A stretch of 64,000 bases of DNA from Alphaproteobacteria bacterium. GTDB taxonomy: Bacteria; Pseudomonadota; Alphaproteobacteria; UBA8366. The stretch lies in assembly GCA_028281325.1 (NCBI GenBank), contig JANQKC010000027.1, positions 62,001 through 126,000 of the forward strand, in the 5' to 3' direction. The notes beneath the pieces are model-generated. The model saw nothing but the letters and a program-made list of their open reading frames with translations, was not told the DNA's origin and did not search any database. Shown piece by piece: positions 15,043-34,363 of the stretch. The translations under genes and the position numbers were made by a program. The first letter of the stretch is position 1; each line of letters begins with the position of its first letter.

Positions 15043-16218
15043 ATGAAGAGCATCACCTGGTACATCGTGCGCCAAGTGACAGCGGTAACGCTGTTGGCGG
15101 CGTTCGTGCTGTGTTTCATGGTTTGGTTGTTCCGCTCGCTGGATATCGTCGACATGATGCTCAACCGTGGGCTTGCGCTGTCGGACTTCCTGCATTTCGC
15201 ATCTCTTCAACTGCCGCGGTTCTTCCTGTTCGTCGGCCCCATGGCTGTCTTCGGCGCAGCGCTCTTCACCTATAACAAAATGATCATGGACAGCGAGCTG
15301 ATCGTCCTCCGCTCCGCGGGCCTCAGCCCTTTCACCTTGGCAAAGCCGGTCATCATCGTCGGAGCCGTCGTCTCGATCTTCTCACTCTTCCTCAGCGTCT
15401 ATCTCGTTCCGCTGACCTATCGGGAATTCAAGGAACTTGAGTTCAAGTACCGTCAGGACCTCCCGAAACTGTTGTTGCAGGAGGGTGTCTTTACCAATTT
15501 GATGGCCGGTATCACGGTATATTTCAAAGACGTCGGGGAAGACGGCGAACTGCGTAATGTCATTATTCACGACAACCGGAACCGCGCCCAGCCGATGACG
15601 TATGTCGCGGACTGGGGGCGACTGATGGAATCCCGGAACGGCCAATGGATGGCGGAACTCTCACAGGGCAGCGGCCAGGTACTCAAGCGCGGCGTCTCCG
15701 AATGCGGCCCGGAGGAAGCGGCGGCTGGAACGGCAACCGGCTGTGCCTTTCCCCGCTTCGAGTATTTCATCGGCGACCGCGCGGATAACTTCAGCCTCAA
15801 TCTCTTCGACAATGACAAGGAGCGTACCGGTCGGAAAACGCGCGAGTACTTCCTGATGGAGCTATACAACGCCGCGCCGGACAACCCGCGCCGTCCGACC
15901 TTCCTCGCGGAATTTCACAGTCGCCTTACGAAACCCTTCCTGCCGCTAACCTGCGCGCTGCTCGGCGTCGCCATTATCCTGTCGGGCAACTTCAATCGCC
16001 GCGGTCAACTGAAACTGATCCTGCTGGCGGTCGGGGTCGCCGGGGCGATCATCATCGGGAACCACGTGCTGCACAATTACGCGCCGCGATTCCCAGTGCT
16101 GAACATAGCCATGTATGCCAACGTGGTGCTGCCGATCATCATAAGCCTGATGATCCTCTTGTTCCCGCGGCGACTTGGGCGACCGTCCGCGCCGGCAATC
16201 GGCCCGCCGGCGACCTAG
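15043..16218 (+). CDS. lptF: LPS export ABC transporter permease LptF
   Basis: ITWYIVRQVTAVTLLAAFVLCFMVWLFRSLDIVDMML...YjgP/YjgQ architecture; ahead of the lptG-lptD block. Confidence 0.9.
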   Translation: MKSITWYIVRQVTAVTLLAAFVLCFMVWLFRSLDIVDMMLNRGLALSDFLHFASLQLPRFFLFVGPMAVFGAALFTYNKMIMDSELIVLRSAGLSPFTLAKPVIIVGAVVSIFSLFLSVYLVPLTYREFKELEFKYRQDLPKLLLQEGVFTNLMAGITVYFKDVGEDGELRNVIIHDNRNRAQPMTYVADWGRLMESRNGQWMAELSQGSGQVLKRGVSECGPEEAAAGTATGCAFPRFEYFIGDRADNFSLNLFDNDKERTGRKTREYFLMELYNAAPDNPRRPTFLAEFHSRLTKPFLPLTCALLGVAIILSGNFNRRGQLKLILLAVGVAGAIIIGNHVLHNYAPRFPVLNIAMYANVVLPIIISLMILLFPRRLGRPSAPAIGPPAT

Positions 16219-16970
16219 ATACTCAGCCGTTTGAAGATCGGTTCCGGAATGGATTTGATGATCGTCATGATCAGAAACCAGAAATTGGGGAAATAGGCCG
16301 TTTCCCGCCCCTTGTCGCTGAGCCGCAAACAAGCGGCCGCGCACGCCTCCGGCGACGCGACGAGGAAGAGGCCCGGCAATCCGAATGTCATATCGGTGTC
16401 GAGGAAACCGGCCTTGACCGTCGTTACCGACACGCCCGCGGGAAACAGGCGTGCCCGCAGGCCCTGCAAGTACAGGTTCAACGCGCCCTTCGCCGATCCA
16501 TAGAGATAGTTTTTCCGGCGACCGCGATCGCCCGCGACGGATGACAGAACCACCAAGCGACCGTCGCCTTGCTTTTCCAAGATCGGGGCCAAGCGGTCGA
16601 GAATGGAGACGGCGCCCAGGTAATTCACATTGACGGTCTGGCGCGCAAGATCGAAATCCTCGTCGGTGGCGTCCTGCTCGTGCATCGCGCCGAACAGCAG
16701 GAAGACATCGATTGCCGTATCGCGGCGCGCGCAGTCCGCGGCAAAATCCGCATGGCTATCGAAATCCTCGGCGTCGAACGCCACGACATCGACGAAGACG
16801 CCGGCGCGCAGCGCGACATCGGCCGCCGTGCGGTTCAGGTCGTCGGTGTCCCGCCCGGCAAGCACGATATCCGCCCCTTGCCGCGCGGCGAGGCGGGCAA
16901 AGGCCCGGCCCACCGACGACGACGCGCCGAGCACCAGCCAGGTTCGCTTCTGCGGTGCCGTCTCGCTCAT
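16215..16970 (-). CDS. SDR oxidoreductase, DprE2-like (decaprenylphosphoryl-2-keto-ribose reductase family)
   Basis: LVLGASSSVGRAFARLAA; VVLSSVAGDRGRRKNYLYGSAKGALNLYLQGLRARLFPAGVSVTTVKAGFLDTDMT; adjacent to DprE1-like gene with ATGA overlap. Confidence 0.82.
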   Translation of the reverse strand: MSETAPQKRTWLVLGASSSVGRAFARLAARQGADIVLAGRDTDDLNRTAADVALRAGVFVDVVAFDAEDFDSHADFAADCARRDTAIDVFLLFGAMHEQDATDEDFDLARQTVNVNYLGAVSILDRLAPILEKQGDGRLVVLSSVAGDRGRRKNYLYGSAKGALNLYLQGLRARLFPAGVSVTTVKAGFLDTDMTFGLPGLFLVASPEACAAACLRLSDKGRETAYFPNFWFLIMTIIKSIPEPIFKRLSI

Positions 16971-18307
16971 CGGCCGGGTCCTCGAATGCCAAGACGCAAC
17001 GCTTGATCGGACATGAAAAGCCCCTTCGGGTCGACGTGTTCCAGGACGGCGCGAAACTCGCGCAACGCCGGGTACATACGGGCAAACCCCGCCTCAGACA
17101 TCATCGAATCCTTCGCAAGGTAAATCCGGCCGCCGTAATCGAGGGTGATGTCCTCGAGCCGTTGCAGCAGATCGGTCACGCCGGCGCGCGCTGGGAAATC
17201 CAAGGCCAACGTGTACCCGCGCACCGGGAAGGACAGGTGCCCGCGCCCCTCGCCGCCCATTGTCTTCAAGACCGCAAGAAAGGAGGCGGACCCGGACGCC
17301 GAAATCTCTTCCAGCAGACTCCGGATTCCGGAGGCGCCGCCTTCTTCCGGCACCACGCACTGGAATTGATGAAATCCGGCCCGTCCATACAGCCGGTTCC
17401 AGTCATGAAGAGCGTCGAGCGGATGGAAAAACGCCGTCAGCGATTTCTTGCTCACCTCGCCGCCGTCCGGCACGCGGCGGTAATAAACCTCGTTGAAGGC
17501 AGACATGGTCAGACGATTGAGCAGTATCCCGGGCATGTCGAACGGCACTCGAAGCCGGCGCGGCGCCTTGTCCGGAATACCGGCGGGGGACGGGTCGGCA
17601 AGTTCCAGGACGCCGCGACCCAATTTTGCCCCGCGCGCCAGCGCATCGATCCATCCGACCGAATAGGTCGCCCGGTCCCGATGCTCCGCGAACAATTCGA
17701 AGAAATGATCCAGATCGCGCACCCGCATTTCCGTGACCTGCACCGCGTTCGACGGCATCGGCAGCACCTTTATGCAGACGGTAACGATGATGCCCGTCAG
17801 GCCAACGCCACCGATGGTCGCCGCGAAAAGGTCGCCATCGTTGTCCGGCGCGACCTGCTTGACCGTGCCGTCCGCCATCAACAGGTCGAACCAGCACACA
17901 TGGTCGCCGATGCTGCCATGCCGGTCATGATTCTTGCCGTGCACGTCATTCGCCACGATACCGCCAACCGTGGCGAACCCCGTGCCCGGCACCGCCGGCA
18001 GCGAGTAGCCACGCGGCACCAGGAAGGCCTGCATATCCGCGACGGTGATGCCCGGCTCGCACACGACCACCTGCTCGGTTTCGTCGAACGCGAGGATGCG
18101 GTCCAACCGTTCAGTCAACAACGCCGCCCCACCGGTGCGGACGGCGGAATCGCCATAGCTGCGCCCGCCGCCATAGGCAACGACGTTTTCCGCGCCGGCC
18201 GCGCGAACCAAGTCGGCGGCCGCGGAAATCCGTTCCGGACGGTACGCGGAAACCGCCGCCGCCGTCGTACGCCCCCAACCGCTAAGCTCTAGCTGCTTAA
18301 ATCTCAT
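16967..18307 (-). CDS. FAD-binding oxidoreductase, DprE1-like (decaprenylphosphoryl-ribose oxidase family)
   Basis: LSGWGRTTAA; YGGGRSYGDSAV; VPGTGFATVGGIVANDVHGKNHDRHGSIGDHV; PLDALHDWNRLYGRAGFHQFQCVVP; IYLAKDSMMS. Confidence 0.87.
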   Translation of the reverse strand: MRFKQLELSGWGRTTAAAVSAYRPERISAAADLVRAAGAENVVAYGGGRSYGDSAVRTGGAALLTERLDRILAFDETEQVVVCEPGITVADMQAFLVPRGYSLPAVPGTGFATVGGIVANDVHGKNHDRHGSIGDHVCWFDLLMADGTVKQVAPDNDGDLFAATIGGVGLTGIIVTVCIKVLPMPSNAVQVTEMRVRDLDHFFELFAEHRDRATYSVGWIDALARGAKLGRGVLELADPSPAGIPDKAPRRLRVPFDMPGILLNRLTMSAFNEVYYRRVPDGGEVSKKSLTAFFHPLDALHDWNRLYGRAGFHQFQCVVPEEGGASGIRSLLEEISASGSASFLAVLKTMGGEGRGHLSFPVRGYTLALDFPARAGVTDLLQRLEDITLDYGGRIYLAKDSMMSEAGFARMYPALREFRAVLEHVDPKGLFMSDQALRLGIRGPGR

Positions 18308-18388
18308 TCATGGAATCCGAACGGTGCTGTCGACGCGCAACACGCCGTAGGTAAGAACGCCATCGGGGTTATACGCCATCCCAGCGAC

Positions 18389-19303
18389 TTAGAAATGAAT
18401 CATGTAAGCGTAAGTTGCCAGCCATCCGGAAACGCACGCCAGCAAGAACCCATCCTTGAACAAAAGGTCGGTCGGCGACCCCGATCGTTCGTAGACGACG
18501 GTGAGTTGGACATACCGGAAAATGCCGGCAATGACATAGGGAACCGTCAGATAAATATTCTTGCTTCCAAGTCGCTTCATCGCATCGCCGTCGAGTGTGA
18601 ATATCAGATAGGAAATCAACAGCGCCGATAAAGTGACGACGATGCAGATATCGAGAAATGGTTTGGTGTATCCGTCGAGGCTGGCGCGATGCTCAGTCCC
18701 GATCTCGAGCGACACATCGTCGCGGCGCTTGGCCAATGCAATGAACAACGCCAGCAACCCGCCGCAAACCTGGATCCATGGCGTGGGATCAATGTCGATC
18801 ACGGTGGCGCCCGCATAGAGCCGCAGGACGAACCCGACGGAGATCACCATCACGTCGACAATGGATATCTTCTTCAGACCGAGGCTGTATCCCGCATTGA
18901 TCGCGAGATAGGCGATCAGCGCGACCGCCGCCAACGGAGCTTTCCAAATGGCCAGCAGCATTCCGCTGAGCACGAGCAACAGCGCCAGAACCATGGCGGC
19001 GGCAGCCGAAACCCGACCGGACGCAACCGGCCGATTCCGTTTCGATGGATGCAGCCGATCGCTTTCGCAATCGCGCGCATCGTTGAAGCAGTAGACGCCG
19101 CTGGACACGAGGCAGAATGCCGCAAACACCACCAGAACGATGCCGACGTTATCCACCGTTACGGCGGCCGGCGTGAAGAAAATCGGCGCGAAGACGAAGG
19201 TGTTCTTCACCCACTGTTTCGGGCGCATCAACGCGAAGGCAGCGGCGATGAAACCGGTGCGCTTCCGCGACGCGTTCCGTTCGGTTGTCTCCGTGGTGAT
19301 CAA
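18389..19303 (-). CDS. UbiA-family polyprenyl-phosphate phosphoribosyltransferase-like (DPPR synthase family)
   Basis: MRPKQWVKNTFVFAPIFF; CFNDARDCESDRLHPSKRNRPVASGRVS; LGLKKISIVDVMVISVGFVLRLYAGATVI. Confidence 0.87.
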   Translation of the reverse strand: MITTETTERNASRKRTGFIAAAFALMRPKQWVKNTFVFAPIFFTPAAVTVDNVGIVLVVFAAFCLVSSGVYCFNDARDCESDRLHPSKRNRPVASGRVSAAAAMVLALLLVLSGMLLAIWKAPLAAVALIAYLAINAGYSLGLKKISIVDVMVISVGFVLRLYAGATVIDIDPTPWIQVCGGLLALFIALAKRRDDVSLEIGTEHRASLDGYTKPFLDICIVVTLSALLISYLIFTLDGDAMKRLGSKNIYLTVPYVIAGIFRYVQLTVVYERSGSPTDLLFKDGFLLACVSGWLATYAYMIHF

Positions 19304-19368
19304 GACGTTAATCCGCCGCTTCCGTGTCCGCGATCCGGGTCATCACGCAGAAATATTGCATGAGCCGA

Positions 19369-19383
19369 TTAATACCTTGTTAA
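19369..19383. promoter_or_regulatory. CtrA-type binding site TTAA-N7-TTAA
   Basis: TTAATACCTTGTTAA, in the divergent ubiA-like/lptG intergenic region, 65 bp from the ubiA-like start. Confidence 0.5.
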
Positions 19384-19667
19384 CGATCTTCACCGTCCGA
19401 CAAAATACTACGGCAGCATAAAAAGATTTTGGCCAAATTTCCTTCCAATAACGCGACGATCCGTACTATTACTCAACAATAAAATAAGAAAGACAGGGTA
19501 TGGGCACCATAGTAAGTACGTTCCGGCACATTGTCGGTCCGCTTCGGACATGCCGCTATACGGGTACCGCGCGCAAGTCTTGCGGCTCGACAGTTGCGCG
19601 TCGTCCCATCGTCACATCCCTGCGTCTCCGATCCATAAGGAGCATATAGCCCGGATCGGAGCCGTAC

Positions 19668-20765
19668 GTGAAAATCTCCACAACCCTGTTCTCCTATCTC
19701 GGACGCCAGTTTCTGTTCTGGCTGGTCAGCGTGTTCATGATTTTCATGGCGATTGCCTTGCTTTTCGACGTGGTCGAAATGCTGCGCCGTACATCGGAAA
19801 AGGCTGATGTCACGCTGGGTCTCGTCTTGCAGATGAGCTTGCTGAAACTGCCCTTCCTGTCGCAAGTGACGCTGCCGTTCATGATCCTGTTCGCGGCGAT
19901 GCTGACCTTCTGGCGTCTTGCCCGCGCCAACGAAGCGGTTGTGGCGCGGGCCGCCGGTATCTCCGCCTGGCAATTCATCCTGCCCGCCTTCCTCATCACC
20001 GTTTTCGTCGGCAGCCTGCAGGTTGCCGTCGTCAATCCTTTCTCCGCGGCGATGCTGGCGCAGTTCCAAAAACTCGAAGCCGAGCACATCAAGAACCGGA
20101 CGAGCATGATCTCCGTCTCGAAGAACGGACTATGGCTGCGGCAGGCCAGCCCGCAGGGCGACTTCGCCGTAATCCATGCCCTGCGCGTCTCGCAGAAAGA
20201 CCTGATTCTGCATCAGGTCATCATTTTCCGGTTCGACGAGAACAGCCGCTTCGTCGATCGAATCGACGCCGACCGGGCCGTCCTTACGGACGGCTATTGG
20301 GTCATTCCGAATGGTTGGCTATCGTCGCCGAAGCCCGAAACACGGCCGATCACCAACGTCCGCGTGCCGACGGACATGACGAAGACCAACATTTTGGAGA
20401 GTTTCGCGCCGCCGGAAACCATGTCGTTCTGGGGCTTGCTGGACTTCATCGATACCATCGAAGCGGCCGGCTTCTCGGGCCATCGCCATCAACTGCACTT
20501 TCACGCACTCACCGCCTTTCCGTTACTGCTTTCGTCGATGATTCTGATCGCCGCGTCCTTCACCTTGCGCATCAACCGGCGCACCGGCACGACCGCGGCG
20601 CTGCTCGGCGGCTTGTCGTGCAGTTTCGTCGTTTATTTCCTGACCGACATCGTTCATGCGCTTGGTCTGTCGGCGAGTATTCCGATCCCGCTGGCGGCTT
20701 GGACACCGGCCGGCGTGTCGATGCTGGTCGGACTCGCCATGCTCTTCCATCTGGAGGATGGGTGA
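19668..20765 (+). CDS. lptG: LPS export ABC transporter permease LptG
   Basis: YLGRQFLFWLVSVFMIFMAIALLFDVVEMLRR; YjgQ-like; 1-nt overlap with lptD. Confidence 0.9.
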   Translation: MKISTTLFSYLGRQFLFWLVSVFMIFMAIALLFDVVEMLRRTSEKADVTLGLVLQMSLLKLPFLSQVTLPFMILFAAMLTFWRLARANEAVVARAAGISAWQFILPAFLITVFVGSLQVAVVNPFSAAMLAQFQKLEAEHIKNRTSMISVSKNGLWLRQASPQGDFAVIHALRVSQKDLILHQVIIFRFDENSRFVDRIDADRAVLTDGYWVIPNGWLSSPKPETRPITNVRVPTDMTKTNILESFAPPETMSFWGLLDFIDTIEAAGFSGHRHQLHFHALTAFPLLLSSMILIAASFTLRINRRTGTTAALLGGLSCSFVVYFLTDIVHALGLSASIPIPLAAWTPAGVSMLVGLAMLFHLEDG

Positions 20766-32267: not shown

Positions 32268-32401
32268 TTCTTGTCCTTTTCAGCCGGCTCCGGGCGGCGC
32301 AACATGGAAGTCATGGCAGCGCCAACAGTCCGTCATATATTGTTGATAATGTTTTGCACGTCCAAACCGCAGCATATGACGAAGACACGCGAGCGCCAAT
32401 C

Positions 32402-34363
32402 ATGACCGACCCTCTCCGTCCCAATGCCGACATCGACCCCGATGACATACCGTCGAACGCCAGCACGGTTCCGGCGCTCGGCGACATCATCGCCACCCGG
32501 TTCAGCCGCCGCAATATGATCCGCGGCACGCTCGGCACCGCCGCGATCGCCGCGATGACCGGCAACAGCCTGCTGACGGTCTTAGGGTCGCCCGCGCAGG
32601 CCGGCGAAACCAAGTTTTCCTTCGCCGAAATCGAACATGGCGTCGACGAAACGCATCACGTCGCCGCGGGATACGATGCGGATATCCTGATCCGCTGGGG
32701 CGATCCGGTTCTGCCGGACGCGCCCGGTTTCGAGCCCCGCAACCAAACGCCCGAGGGACAGGCCAGGCAGTTCGGCTACAACAACGATTTCGTCGGCTTC
32801 ATCCCGCTGCCGCGCGGGTCGCGGTCGGCCACCCGCGGCCTGCTCTGCGTGAACCACGAATACACCAGCCACCGCGTCATGTTTCCGAGCGGGTTCAACG
32901 ACGACACGCGCCGCTTCGAAATCGAGATGGCGGCGCATGGCGGATCGATTCTCGAAGTCGCGCGTGGGTCCGACGGCCGCTGGTCCGTCGACGGCGGCAG
33001 CACATACGCCCGGCGTATCTCGGCGACCACGCCGATGCGCCTCTCCGGACCGGCCGCCGGCCATGCCCGGATGAAGACATCCGCCGACCCATCCGGCGCC
33101 CGCGTCTTGGGCACGGTCAACAACTGCGCCGGCGGCATCACGCCCTGGGGCACCTATCTGATGGCCGAGGAGAACTTCAACCATTACTTCATCGGATCGC
33201 TGAAAGGCCATCCGGAACAACGAAATTATGCACGATATGGATTGCCGAGCGGCCGGTACGGCTGGGGCAGGGTCGACCCGCGCTGGGATATCGACAAGGA
33301 ACCGAACGAACCGAACCGGTTCGGCTGGATCGTCGAAGTCGACGCGCTCGATCCCACGTCGGTGCCGGTCAAACGCACCGCCCTCGGCCGCTTCAAGCAC
33401 GAGGGCGCGGAGACCATCGTCAACGGCGACGGCCGGGTCGTGATCTATTCCGGCGACGATCAACGCTACGACTATCTCTACCGTTTCGTCAGCCGGGACC
33501 GCGTGGATAAGGATGACCGGCAGGCGAATTTGACCCTGCTGGATAACGGCACGCTGTCGGTCGCCAAGTTCGACCCCGACGGCAGTCTGGCTTGGCTCGA
33601 CCTGGTCTGGGGCGAAGGCCCGCTGACCCCGAGCAACGGATTCTCCAGCCAGGCCGACGTGCTGATCGAAACGCGCCGGGCGGCCGATATGTTGGGGGCG
33701 ACCCCGCTCGACCGTCCCGAGGACGTGCAGCCGAATCCCGCAACCGGCAAGGTCTACCTCAACCTGACGAACAACCACAAACGCACGGCCGACAACACCG
33801 ACAGGGTCAACCGCCGCGAAAAGAACATCTGGGGCCAGATCGTCGAACTGTCCCCGCCGGACGGCGACCACGCGGCGCGCGCCTTCCAATGGGACATCCT
33901 GGTGCAGTGCGGCGACCCGAGACGCCCGGAAACGCGGGCGATCTGGCATCCCGACACATCCGAGAACGGCTGGTTTTCCTGTCCCGACAACGCGGCGGTA
34001 GACGCCGAAGGGCGTCTTTGGATCGCCACCGACCAGGGCGGCAACTGGTCGCTCGCCTCCGGGACGGCCGACGGCTTGTGGGCCGTGGCGACATCGGGTC
34101 CGGGCCGGGGCACGGGGCGGATGTTCTATCGCGTCCCCGTCGGCGCGGAACTCTGCGGTCCCTGCTTCACGCCGGACGGCGAGACGCTGTTTCTGGCCGT
34201 GCAGCACCCGGGCACCGACGGCACCAAGCAGTTCGAAGGGTTCGGCCGGCGATCGACGTTCGAGGATCCGGCCACGCGCTGGCCCGACTTCGAGGACGGC
34301 ATCCCGCCCCGTCCCTCGATCGTCGCCGTCACCAAGAAGGGCGGCGGCCGCATCGGCGGCTGA
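32402..34363 (+). CDS. PhoX family (DUF839) phosphatase-like protein, Tat-exported
   Basis: Tat motif FSRRNMIRGTLGTAAIAAM; FGYNNDFVGFIPLPRGS; GGITPWGTYLMAEENFNHYF; RFGWIVEVDALDPTSVPVKRTALGRFKHEGAE. Confidence 0.9.
   Translation: MTDPLRPNADIDPDDIPSNASTVPALGDIIATRFSRRNMIRGTLGTAAIAAMTGNSLLTVLGSPAQAGETKFSFAEIEHGVDETHHVAAGYDADILIRWGDPVLPDAPGFEPRNQTPEGQARQFGYNNDFVGFIPLPRGSRSATRGLLCVNHEYTSHRVMFPSGFNDDTRRFEIEMAAHGGSILEVARGSDGRWSVDGGSTYARRISATTPMRLSGPAAGHARMKTSADPSGARVLGTVNNCAGGITPWGTYLMAEENFNHYFIGSLKGHPEQRNYARYGLPSGRYGWGRVDPRWDIDKEPNEPNRFGWIVEVDALDPTSVPVKRTALGRFKHEGAETIVNGDGRVVIYSGDDQRYDYLYRFVSRDRVDKDDRQANLTLLDNGTLSVAKFDPDGSLAWLDLVWGEGPLTPSNGFSSQADVLIETRRAADMLGATPLDRPEDVQPNPATGKVYLNLTNNHKRTADNTDRVNRREKNIWGQIVELSPPDGDHAARAFQWDILVQCGDPRRPETRAIWHPDTSENGWFSCPDNAAVDAEGRLWIATDQGGNWSLASGTADGLWAVATSGPGRGTGRMFYRVPVGAELCGPCFTPDGETLFLAVQHPGTDGTKQFEGFGRRSTFEDPATRWPDFEDGIPPRPSIVAVTKKGGGRIGG

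Follow-up and report, generated by a model that had tools for sequence, protein, structure and literature searches.

Lipid-linked arabinose donors are familiar above all from the cell wall of the tuberculosis bacterium. For Gram-negative bacteria, Kelly et al. 2024 (PMC11127046) describe periplasmic pentofuranose addition by way of polyprenyl-phosphoribose, a flippase and a GT-C glycosyltransferase; homologues of DprE1/E2 occur where the glycan contains arabinofuranose (Araf), and the same paper cites a Pseudomonas pilin system with a related arabinosylation pathway. Here we analyse a trio of genes related to these systems in a 64,000-nucleotide stretch of the genome of an uncultured alphaproteobacterium (C35:62001-126000 of a 5.1 Mb assembly in 41 contigs; hereafter the window), where they lie between lptF and lptG, the genes of two lipopolysaccharide (LPS) export permeases. 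We consider it quite probable that the trio makes a lipid-linked arabinose donor, polyprenyl-phosphate-beta-D-arabinofuranose, a degree of confidence that applies to donor synthesis and not to the acceptor. If so, LPS-export genes in a Gram-negative group have, as a stable neighbour under selection, an arabinose-donor pathway that is a target of tuberculosis drugs.

Identity of the three genes

The trio is read from the minus strand and comprises, in order of transcription, a ubiA-type gene for a polyprenyl-phosphate phosphoribosyltransferase resembling DPPR synthase (18389-19303, TTG start, 304 aa); dprE1 (16967-18307, 446 aa), for a predicted polyprenyl-phospho-ribose 2'-oxidase dependent on flavin adenine dinucleotide (FAD); and dprE2 (16215-16970, 251 aa), for a predicted polyprenyl-phospho-2-keto-erythro-pentose reductase of the short-chain dehydrogenase/reductase (SDR) family. 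The genes dprE1 and dprE2 overlap by 4 bases, and dprE2 is convergent with lptF (15043-16218, plus strand; PF03739 E 9.4e-60, TIGR04407 192 bits), their stops overlapping by 4 bases; at the other end, ubiA and lptG (19668-20765, plus strand, GTG start; TIGR04408 243.7 bits, which exceeds the cut-off) are divergent with a spacing of ~365 bp. An earlier note on this DNA had described genes resembling DPPR synthase, DprE1 and DprE2, all three on the minus strand, that lie between lptF and lptG and overlap the lptF stop. The open reading frames (ORFs) lie as it said, comparisons with Pfam, NCBIfam and the PDB fit its assignments, and no phylogeny places the proteins outside these families.

The best PDB match of the DprE1 protein is mycobacterial DprE1 (4aut, E 4.9e-85, residues 7-440), with the next family at 51.6 bits, and that of the DprE2 protein is mycobacterial DprE2 (21gq, 104.5 bits, E 4.9e-29, residues 8-251), with other SDRs at 65 bits or less. 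DprE2 also scores 257 bits against PRK07102 and has the SDR catalytic Ser and YxxxK. The only PDB matches of the UbiA protein are DPPR synthase structures (8j8j/8j8k, E 8.5e-35, residues 16-302); it retains the NDxxDxxxD motif, lacks a HAD phosphatase domain recognisable by Pfam, and scores 219.9 bits against PRK12324, compared with ~50 bits or less for quinone and haem prenyltransferase families. For the DPPR synthase-like protein and DprE1, the PDB searches returned no other close family. At the level of sequence, it is therefore directly supported that the trio encodes homologues of mycobacterial DPPR synthase, DprE1 and DprE2 with the same architecture.

Residue equivalences in DprE1 were established by alignment to the mycobacterial PDB chain together with a 13-sequence alignment of homologues. 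Tyr51, His123, Lys125, Lys348 and Lys399, invariant across the 13 homologues, correspond to what we take to be the active-site residues Tyr60, His132, Lys134, Lys367 and Lys418 of Mycobacterium tuberculosis. The equivalent of Cys387, the site of the benzothiazinone adduct, is Ala368 in the window and Ala or Ser among the homologues. Substitution of Cys387 blocks covalent benzothiazinone action and, to our knowledge, the residue is dispensable for DprE1 catalysis. Covalent inhibition is not expected because the equivalent residue is Ala, so that the benzothiazinone sensitivity test suggested in the earlier note should give a negative outcome.

Linkage to the lpt locus across the order

We compared 44 genomes of the order, belonging to the window's family (f1, 11 genomes) and three others (f2, 12; f3, 14; f4, 7). 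At a threshold of E 1e-50, close DprE1 was found in 12 genomes, the window's included, as 13 copies (5/11 genomes in f1 and 7/7 in f4), and in 0/12 f2 and 0/14 f3 genomes. All 13 copies adjoin lptF and/or lptG. The trio lies between lptF and lptG in f1, and between pepA and lptF, divergent from lptF, in f4; in those genomes of f2 and f3 that were inspected, lptF and lptG are adjacent, ~100 bp or less apart. Throughout the order the three genes stay in one run, one copy (G010) being interrupted on the dprE2 side by a contig end. A genome of the same genus as the window (G001, JAJFJD010000008.1) has the same arrangement, with the trio 85-90% identical and DprE1 at 88% amino acid identity. Between these two genomes the ratio of non-synonymous to synonymous substitution rates (dN/dS) is 0.06 for dprE2, 0.08 for dprE1 and 0.15 for ubiA, with 0.10 for lptF and 0.03 for lptG; the trio genes are under purifying selection. 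Since the same-genus genome matches and the dN/dS of the trio is about 0.06-0.15, the arrangement is not due to chance.

A tree of the flanking genes, built by a quick method, resolves the window's family as (g3,(g1,(g2,g4))), where g1 is the window's genus. In the tree of the trio, g1 and g3 are joined with support of 99/98, and f1 and f4 are joined at 83/84, which is not decisive. A tree grouping g1 with f4, an alternative chosen for testing after pairwise identities had hinted at it, is disfavoured (approximately unbiased test, p-AU 0.0115); a tree of DprE1 only leaves the placement of g1 relative to f4 unsettled. For the window's family the trees of the trio and of the flanking genes are congruent, and they place the trio at the lptF-lptG junction since at least the f1 ancestor, provided that g2 and g4 have lost it. 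A recent mobile insertion is rejected on the family clade at 99/98 and the p-AU of 0.0115 against g1 with f4, and the word "inserted" in the earlier note, with its implication of recent acquisition, does not suit a placement at least as old as the family's ancestor. The linkage of the trio to the lpt locus is thus directly supported as ancient and evolutionarily maintained, and is more than a one-off.

In g4, the lptF-lptG gap is ~640 bp (L092:7631-8272, L095:6854-7496) and 87% identical between two species; remnants of the trio sought in it gave no convincing match. One f2 genome (G029, L068:2207-4251) carries a divergent DprE1/DprE2-like pair at 26-27% identity, in a stretch without lpt genes. 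In the window, lptD and surA are also clear by Pfam. The region between ubiA and lptG (19304-19667), presumed to hold both promoters, is ~79% identical to that of a sister species; no sigma-70-like site was found in it, a promoter and terminator scan gave matches no more numerous than in shuffles, and an Rfam search gave no match.

Probable donor synthesis, unlinked steps and the acceptor

The enzyme identities argue for a polyprenyl-phosphate-pentose donor in this Gram-negative bacterium, as had been proposed from the letters. We infer the catalysis, the lipid (probably undecaprenyl), the phosphatase, the flippase, the transferase and the acceptor. The 5'-phosphate would be removed by an unlinked phosphatase; DprE1 would then oxidise C2 with FAD, and DprE2 would reduce it with inversion, using NAD(P)H, to give the arabinose donor. 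A flippase would bring the donor to the periplasmic side, where a GT-C transferase, its gene lying at another site in the genome, would move arabinose onto an envelope glycan.

Several observations weigh against this reading. All three proteins fall below their NCBIfam cut-offs (DprE1, 430.7 bits against the 500 of equivalog NF053785; DprE2, 181 against the 250 of NF053786; UbiA protein, 219.9 against the 234 of PRK12324), and they are therefore homologues outside the calibrated core of these families. Among the ~50 larger ORFs scanned in the window, there is no linked 5'-phosphatase, flippase or GT-C protein, in line with the earlier note's remark that the phosphatase step and the arabinosyltransferase lie outside it; the only phosphatase to turn up was of PhoX type (32354-34363), 13 kb away. 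No phosphatase is linked to the trio, phosphatases not having been searched genome-wide, and neither is a stand-alone GtrA or MATE flippase, MATE proteins likewise not having been searched genome-wide. The sole GtrA domain in the genome is unlinked and fused to a family-2 glycosyltransferase. The search for GT-C proteins elsewhere in the genome, which the earlier note had recommended, did yield candidates, all unlinked: seven PMT_2, one GT87 and one AftB-like protein (G000:C15:72262-73971; L070:9263-10975). The last, so labelled on a presumed AftB motif and on weak similarity to genes beside UbiA-DprE1 in two other loci (L034 and L043), was found in 0/60 relatives at E 0.001, the same-genus relative included, which weakens it as the partner of the trio. 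A single-sequence AlphaFold model of the L034 GT-C protein was unusable (mean predicted local distance difference test score, pLDDT, 44).

A further candidate transferase comes from the sister genus g3, in which a multi-pass protein of 628-634 aa is encoded downstream of dprE2 in the same run, ending at lptF, between lptF and lptG. Its length, membrane character and conserved acidic SEVD motif make it a candidate GT-C transferase; no Pfam family scores above cut-off, and comparison of GT-C families with PDB sequences gave no meaningful match. Genera g2, g4 and g5, all of them without a close DprE1, encode relatives at ~28-34% identity: the gene stands alone between lptF and lptG in g2, and in g4 it is at another site, near acyltransferase and PMT-type genes. 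Among 60 relatives searched, the family (for example L066:6863-8749, L067:12175-14079, L089:6989-8893 and L093:6912-8864, all with no Pfam or PDB match) is confined to the window's family. Sequence searches, on which this negative rests, found no such protein in the window's own genome or elsewhere in its genus. Because it occurs without DprE1 and is absent from the window's genus, either the multi-pass protein is not an arabinosyltransferase in the strict sense, or the genes for donor and transferase turn over independently of each other.

As acceptor, LPS is the leading candidate, a guess from location only. That a real donor is directed to LPS (core, lipid A or O-chain), with the lpt linkage reflecting shared regulation or function, can be held tentatively: the 13/13 close copies in the order at the lpt/surA locus, when other alphaproteobacterial trios stand in other contexts, and the GT-C-like gene in the same run in the sister genus speak for it, while the trio is transcribed opposite to lptF and lptG, and the family-specific GT-C, missing from the window's genus, occurs in genomes that have no DprE1. 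Of the LPS arabinosylation suggested in the earlier note, what stands is that the location is evolutionarily maintained; the transferase side fares less well, the candidate occurring also without DprE1 and none being linked in the window's genome. Rather unlikely, in our judgement, is the fuller proposal that the lpt-linked trio and the ~630 aa family form a dedicated LPS pentofuranose-modification system of the order, with genes gained and lost separately at the lptF-lptG junction and a transferase of a new GT-C family.

It is also possible that a real donor serves another envelope target (pilin or another protein, capsule, exopolysaccharide or glycolipid) and that the lpt placement is historical. 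Pilin arabinosylation in Pseudomonas by a related pathway (cited in PMC11127046), the dprE1, dprE2 and HAD-ubiA genes that adjoin Flp pilus genes in Rhodobacteraceae, and the several unlinked GT-C proteins of the window's genome are consistent with this; against it, none of the window ORFs scanned was recognised by Pfam as a pilus or capsule gene, and the stable lpt linkage would need another reason. A product other than arabinose, polyprenyl-phosphate-ribose or another epimer, would suit the scores below equivalog cut-offs, but is improbable given that the genes of DprE1 and DprE2 occur and are conserved together with that of the phosphoribosyltransferase and that DprE1 retains its active-site residues. 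Least probable is that ordinary catabolic enzymes (a lactone oxidase and a sugar dehydrogenase) stand by chance beside a ubiA gene: DprE1 does match the Pfam ALO family weakly and SDRs are a very broad family, but the PDB scores of DprE1 speak against an ordinary sugar oxidase, a reading that we reject, the best PDB match of DprE2 is DprE2, and the three genes remain together across genomes.

Comparison with described systems

Our preferred reading, synthesis of an arabinose donor by the trio, places the locus beside several known pathways. In the mycobacterial decaprenyl-phosphoryl-arabinose pathway (Rv3806c, Rv3807c, DprE1/DprE2, Rv3789, Emb/Aft), the phosphoribosyltransferase, oxidase and reductase are homologous to those of the window and the reaction order is expected to be the same. 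The window differs in its Gram-negative host, the replacement of DprE1 Cys387 by Ala, the siting of the genes in the lpt locus, and the lack of a linked phosphatase, flippase or Emb/Aft transferase. The noe genes of Azorhizobium, which act in Nod factor arabinosylation, are reported to encode the same kind of donor enzymes, with a symbiotic signal as acceptor and a different locus.

With the Gram-negative three-component pentofuranose systems of O-antigens (PMC11127046; GT136), the window shares a UbiA-type polyprenyl-phosphoribose synthase and, as where the glycan contains Araf, DprE1/E2 homologues, and a periplasmic GT-C is expected. The Citrobacter enzyme (PMC11127046) carries a fused HAD phosphatase, and its gene cluster includes a MATE flippase and a GT136 transferase; none of these is linked in the window. 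Alphaproteobacterial plasmid clusters of HAD-UbiA, GtrA, DprE1 and DprE2 (Rhizobium, Paracoccus, Azospirillum) have the DprE1/DprE2/UbiA core in common with the window; they have a long UbiA of the HAD-fused type and GtrA, whereas the window's trio lacks both and is chromosomal, at lptF/lptG. In Rhizobium and Paracoccus the plasmid clusters adjoin ~520 aa proteins without a Pfam match, possibly GT-C, for which the window's trio has no counterpart; they are tandem, related to each other and directly 3' of DprE2 (L111:10086-14802, L112:10200-13329), and may be transferases.

In several Rhodobacteraceae (L035:9007-18031; also L037, L041 and L042), an LPG_synthase_TM-type gene overlaps dprE1 and is followed by the dprE1/dprE2 pair; after the pair, on the opposite strand, comes a gene for a HAD-UbiA fusion in L035, L041 and L042, which was not seen in L037. 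All four loci adjoin an SLT transglycosylase, a small Flp-pilin-like ORF, CpaB/RcpC and a secretin, which suggests that dprE1/dprE2 are linked with Flp pili there.

We found no report of DprE1 with lptF in the literature searched, many journals being outside its coverage. In view of PMC11127046 and the plasmid clusters, the arabinose-donor pathway proposed here is of a known kind. The new elements are an lpt linkage that is fixed in two families and the multi-pass family particular to this lineage, a candidate transferase family that has no Pfam model. Should LPS be the acceptor, a pentofuranose modification would join the biology of alphaproteobacterial LPS, and these genomes would offer a system for testing what the GT-C transfers.

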